From NCBI GenBank assembly GCA_002189035.1, contig NEEC01000020.1, positions 62,001 to 126,000 on the forward strand: 64,000 nucleotides of DNA, read 5' to 3'. A program made the position numbers and the translations under genes. The notes beneath the pieces were generated by a model. The model searched no databases, was not told the origin of the DNA, and worked only from the letters and a program-made list of their open reading frames with translations. Source of the DNA: Utricularia gibba. Lineage: Eukaryota > Streptophyta > Magnoliopsida > Lamiales > Lentibulariaceae. Below are positions 57,474 to 58,930 of this stretch, piece after piece (within the stretch, counting starts at the first letter, position 1; every line of letters starts with the position of its first letter).

Positions 57474-58930
57474 ATGGCGGCGATCAGCCCCGACGACCGG
57501 GGGAACACTCATGTTTTCATGGTTTCGTTCCCCGGCCAGGGCCACGTCAACCCTCTCCTCCGTCTCGGGAAGCGTCTCGCTGGCTTCGGCCTGACTGTCA
57601 CCGTCTGCACGCCGGAGTTCGCCGGGAACAGCATCAAACAGGTCAACAACATCCACGATGGCGACCAGGTCGAGATGGGTCGGGGAAAGATCCGGTTCCA
57701 GTTTTTCGACGACGGCTGGGATGTCACCGATCCCAACAGGAACCAACTCGACGCTTATTTGGCGCAGTTGGAGCTCGTCGGCCGGATGAAACTGCCGCAG
57801 ATGATCCGAGAACAGGAGGAAATGGGTCGACCCGTTTCCTGTCTGATCAACAACCCGTTTATTCCTTGGGTCTCCGATGTTGCGGAGGAGCTCGGAATCC
57901 CCAGCGCGATGCTCTGGGTTCAGTCCTGCGCCAGCTACGCTGTTTATTACCATTACTATAACAAGCTTCTTCACTTTCCGACGGCCGATGATCCCCAAAT
58001 CGACGTTGAGGTTCCTTGTCTCCCGGCGTTGAAATACGACGAGATTCCAAGCTTCTTGCACCCGAGCAGTCCTTATCCCTTTCTCGCGACGGCGGTTCTG
58101 GGCCAGTTCAAGAACATCAAGAAACCATTCTGCATTTTAATGGACACTTTTCAACAACTTGAGCTCGAAATCGTCGATTACATGTCCAAAATCTGTCGCC
58201 CGGTGAAAACAATCGGCCCCCTTTTCAAGGACCTCAGCAGCAAGGACGTCGGAATCAACCAGAAAAAGTGCGAAATCCGCGTGGATTTCTTCGCTCCCGA
58301 TGACTGCTTAGCCTGGTTAGATTCACAGCCTCTTCGTTCCGTCGTTTACATCTCCTTCGGAAGCATAGTACAGTTGAAACAAGCGCAAATCGATGAATTG
58401 GCTCACGGGCTTCTGATTTCCGGGCTGCCGTTTCTCTGGGTATTGAGACCTCCGGCGAATTTATCCATGGTGCCGCCGAGCGTCTTGCCGGAGGGGTTTC
58501 TGGAGAAAGCCGGCGATAAGGGGAAAATCGTACAGTGGAGCCCGCAAACTGAGGTCTTGGCTCATCCTTCGACCGCTTGTTTCGTGTCTCACTGTGGATG
58601 GAACTCGACGATGGAAGCGCTGGCGTGCGGCGTCCCGGTGGTGGCGCTGCCTCAGTGGGGGGATCAGGTGACGGATGCCAAGTTTTTAGTGGATGTGTTC
58701 AAAGTTGGGATCAGAATGTCGAGGGAGAGGGGGATGGAAGGGTGATTATTAGACGGGAGGAGGTCGCCGAGTGTCTCACGGCAGCGGCGGTGGGTGCGCC
58801 GGCGATGGAAATGCGGGAGAACGCTCTGAAGTGGAAGGAAGCCGCGGAGGCGGCGGTGGCGGAAGGCGGATCTTCGTACAGAAACGTGGAGGAGTTCGTC
58901 GAGGAGATTCTCCGGCTTCGCGTTCCGTGA
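57474..58930 (+). pseudogene. UGT84-like UDP-glycosyltransferase with a one-base frame break
   Basis: Intronless family-1 glycosyltransferase similar to UGT84A enzymes, which make glucose esters of hydroxycinnamic or gallic acids. The catalytic His24 is in FPGQGHVNPLLRLGKRL. The 44-residue PSPG box is complete, from WSPQTEVLAHPSTACFVSHC to PQWGDQ; its final Gln favours UDP-glucose. The frame stops at 58745, after RMSRERGMEG. From about 58734 the next frame carries the normal C terminus: DGRVIIRREEVAECL, then ENALKWKEAAEAAVAEGGSS and VEEFVEEILRLR, ending at 58930. One missing base in the G5 run at 58729-58733 accounts for everything, and the span would then encode 485 aa, a typical length. Either a recent null allele or a sequencing or assembly error. 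Confidence 0.85.

Follow-up and report, generated by a model that had tools for sequence, protein, structure and literature searches.

Plant glucosyltransferases of the UGT84 family, such as pomegranate UGT84A23 and UGT84A24, convert phenolic acids into glucose esters, and the gene described here has in common with them its length, the PSPG box, the GQGHVNP region and the conserved C-terminal segment; it differs in that its frame is interrupted in the assembled sequence (PMC4882073). The solved structure of the anthocyanidin glucosyltransferase Ct3GT-A has a C-terminal helix that spans the cleft and connects with the N domain (PMC3795551). Gene-fragmenting homopolymer indels are a known residual error of long-read assemblies, and the loss of a single homopolymer base can give an intact gene the look of a pseudogene (PMC12007338). 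The PacBio assembly of Utricularia gibba was made with HGAP and polished by Quiver, with 88x reads (PMC5793159); a review counts 581 contigs for it, versus 516 in the assembly analysed here, which is probably the same HGAP/Quiver product.

A one-base assembly miscount very probably accounts for the frame break in the U. gibba gene. The published cases of such errors concern small genomes with reads at hand (PMC12007338), whereas the support presented here is statistical and drawn from the assembly.

Gene structure and frame break

The window, the whole stretch of 64,000 nucleotides analysed, corresponds to positions 62001-126000 of contig C317 (1.98 Mb) in a plant genome assembly of 100.1 Mb and 516 contigs. 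On its forward strand, frame 1 extends from the ATG at 57474 to a premature TGA at 58743-58745 (57474..58745) and encodes 423 aa of a UGT84-like UDP-glucosyltransferase with a Pfam UDPGT domain (PF00201, E=1e-21; 77.8 bits against a cut-off of 19.5), as expected of a plant family-1 UGT (GT1). The PSPG box characteristic of this family, 44 aa long, lies at 58536..58667 of the same strand with every signature position satisfied (WSPQTEVLAHPSTACFVSHCGWNSTMEALACGVPVVALPQWGDQ), and the GQGHVNP catalytic-His region is likewise present in the 423-aa part. Comparison of this part with the PDB retrieved plant UGTs, with 8inh matching at E=1.7e-162 over residues 7-405; 8inh, 8ie4 and 8i8z are the best relatives among solved structures, UGT74F2 being more distant. 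Three paralogues in the same genome, 63-75% identical to the window gene protein, are closer than UGT74F2 and intronless according to frameshift-aware alignment. In particular, the intact paralogue at C1:2213057-2214473 (L002/L006) encodes a 75% identical protein of 497 aa in a fully open, likewise intronless frame. When the whole assembly was searched for a second copy of the locus, only the locus itself was recovered at 100%, the next match being at 74%. The gene is a putative UGT84 member, in group L of the plant family-1 UDP-glucosyltransferases.

The C-terminal region is not contained within the same frame. Its last 65 codons, followed by a stop, occupy 58733..58930 of the forward strand in a shifted frame, where they are otherwise present and intact, and match the same PDB chains at the next residues, namely 8inh 411-466 (E=3.7e-14), 8ie4 418-474 and 8i8z 421-479, far beyond chance expectation. 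Frameshift-aware alignment to an intact paralogue detected no further stop or shift over 1.45 kb. The frame break is thus real in the assembled letters, and the preliminary description was right in reporting a UGT84-like glucosyltransferase with an intact PSPG box ahead of the break, a frame end at 58745, an intact C terminus in the next frame up to 58930, and a single lesion in an otherwise clean 1.45 kb. Restoration of the frame from the assembled sequence by splicing or translational frameshifting is exceedingly improbable: no support for either was found at this gene, the interval 58721-58733 is too small for an intron, the three UGT84-like paralogues have none, and homology continues unbroken across the site.

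Most likely position of the missing base

Every possible insertion of one base in 58690-58760 was evaluated by its score against the three intact UGT84-like paralogues from this genome. Adding one G to the GGG at 58723-58725 gave the best summed score, 5075; this run is one G short relative to the family RGE motif, and the addition restores SRGE.DGR, where the paralogues have SRGEAEGR, GRGEADER and SRGEAEDR. The likeliest site of the break is therefore 58722..58726 on the forward strand, since the frame-1 homology ends with the residues MSR and the frame-2 homology starts at GE (GE.DGR), and frameshift-aware alignment put the break at the same place. The assembled letters at 58722-58737 are AGGGAGAGGGGGATGG, and the 75% identical paralogue on C1 reads RLSRGEAEGRIIPREE at the corresponding position. 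The G5 run at 58729..58733 of the same strand, previously blamed for the missing G, is less well supported as the site, with a summed score of 5036 (39 points below the GGG placement), and the homology points to the earlier run.

After the one-base correction, the window protein still carries one residue more than the paralogues (GRVIIRREE versus GRIIPREE), beside a tandem ATTATT. If the GA/GG-rich stretch had instead gained a net two bases, through error or mutation, one event would explain both this residue and the break, given that the paralogues and the PDB relatives are one residue shorter between SR and IIPR/VIPR. Such a gain is nevertheless quite unlikely, because RGE.DGR is recovered under the one-base model, whose score over the three paralogues is the higher one even with the gap it leaves (5075, versus 5033 for the best two-base deletion), and because the extra residue can be a small in-frame difference, for which the adjacent ATTATT would be a simple cause.

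Constraint on the C-terminal segment

Compared with its closest paralogue, the window gene had a dN/dS of approximately 0.12 upstream of the break and 0.29 downstream, as against 0.20-0.22 after the break position in intact pairs (NG86 estimates over 64 tail codons, with synonymous sites near saturation). The tail is 64% identical to the closest paralogue, and by dN/dS against that paralogue its 64 codons show no sign of decay. An undecayed tail would fit an assembly error and a very recent mutation alike and does not separate them.

The latter would be a true recent one-base deletion, i.e. a null allele or young pseudogene of the UGT84-like glucosyltransferase. The assembled letters themselves show the break, and the intact 75% identical paralogue on C1 could make the loss tolerable. 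In that case, the protein would stop a few residues past the break and lack the approximately 65 C-terminal residues that follow the PSPG box. Among them is the C-terminal helix, which in solved plant UGTs returns to the N domain, as seen in Ct3GT-A (PMC3795551), so that loss of activity would be likely; within a miniature plant genome, the function would then be carried by the paralogue. Against such a deletion stand the constrained tail, free of added decay, and the frequency of the same signature elsewhere in the assembly, essential genes included.

Frame breaks in UGT genes

Frameshift-tolerant protein-to-DNA alignment was carried out over 69 UGT gene models, a few loci being represented twice, with each break counted once. 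No break was found in 36 models; the others yielded 35 breaks of the one-base-loss type versus only 7 of the opposite sign. Neighbouring G/C runs three or more bases long occurred at 31 of the 35 loss-type breaks (null 0.37, p=5e-10), and runs four or more bases long at 16 of them (null 0.10), the null being derived from random deletions placed in unbroken UGT genes. No excess of A/T runs was observed at the loss-type breaks (9/35, null 0.43), nor any G/C-run bias among the 7 opposite-sign breaks. Across the assembly, breaks are biased towards one-base loss and towards G/C homopolymers. An attempt to assign each UGT break to a single homopolymer, by asking which inserted base scored best against a paralogue, proved too ambiguous at 30-70% identity and was dropped; the test of runs in the neighbourhood of breaks was used in its place.

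Some of the UGT genes that carry several lesions are probably genuine pseudogenes. Those at L058 and L063 (C1:1092500-1098600 and C142:2065700-2070100), with 2-3 breaks each, likely represent a mix of true pseudogenes and errors. Both of two tandem UGT genes at L048 (C4:2692600-2697600) appear to break frame at residue 88, next to GGGG; because the break is shared, it is either genuine or produced by the alignment of a diverged segment.

Frame breaks in essential genes

Because some multi-lesion UGT genes are probably true pseudogenes, essential genes were examined as well. The only full-length match to bacterial/plastid-type EF-Tu (L072, C1:2008100-2009700) is split over two frames covering adjoining family positions 2-289 and 287-394; the letters at the break are TTCTGAGGGAATGG (DNA CTGAGGGAATGGTGCTG), followed by GMVLAKPG in the other frame. 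The only CHLH gene (L073, C304:1365200-1369800) changes frame at GNIP|NVYYYAANNP (AACATCCCAATG; DNA ATCCCAATG). Finally, two HSP70 genes, on C496 (CCATCCCACG, CATCCCACG) and C451 (CCCCAAGGGAGTC, CCAAGGGAGTC), also change frame, whereas the paralogue on C98 is open at the position where these copies break. Each of the four genes (L065 and L066 for the HSP70 loci) has a single break, located where G or C occurs three times in a row. These breaks in indispensable genes are probable assembly errors. In every case the letters read as if a run of four G or C had been shortened to three, and in two of the genes the change would be AGGGGA to AGGGA, the same as that proposed for the UGT gene.

The error is not universal, as shown by the 36 unbroken UGT models and by an acetolactate synthase gene that is open and unbroken; histone genes, which look sound, and light-harvesting genes are mostly unbroken. 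The conserved genes, when pooled, show a break of this kind roughly every 5-10 kb; although this estimate is coarse, being based on few genes, it renders a hit within a gene of 1.46 kb unremarkable. Depletion of four-G runs before A, expected from a context-wide miscount, was not seen in 287 kb, which indicates that the errors are sporadic. GGG is a short run, in which per-run miscounts should be rarer than in long runs, and this counts against an error at the UGT locus.

The preliminary description had considered an assembly error and a null allele equally possible. This parity does not survive the comparison: since one-base-loss breaks beside G/C runs recur across the assembly, including in the EF-Tu-type factor, CHLH and HSP70, a miscount is far likelier, and a true deletion in the window gene is unlikely. 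According to the miscount reading, short G/C runs would be sporadically undercounted in the assembly, and one G would have been lost in this way from the GGG at 58723-58725. The plant DNA would then carry one more G, and the locus would be an ordinary intronless UGT84-like (group L) gene, probably whole in the plant, whose enzyme would make glucose esters of phenolic acids as UGT84 enzymes do.

As a single UGT gene, the locus is of little importance, while the result is of some practical use to anyone working with the assembly. A sizeable share of its intronless genes, essential ones included, appears to be broken by one-base losses at short G/C runs, and claims of pseudogenes or gene loss based on it need backing by reads or transcripts.

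Two further loci were noted among the conserved genes. A light-harvesting-like sequence (L067) showed two shifts against a poorly matching query and was left out of the count. A 31-kb contig (L070, C241:10500-20000) repeats 4.46 kb of C304 (L071, C304:2233900-2243400) at 99.6% identity, and the HSP70 gene within this repeat appears to break frame identically in the two copies and may therefore be a real pseudogene.
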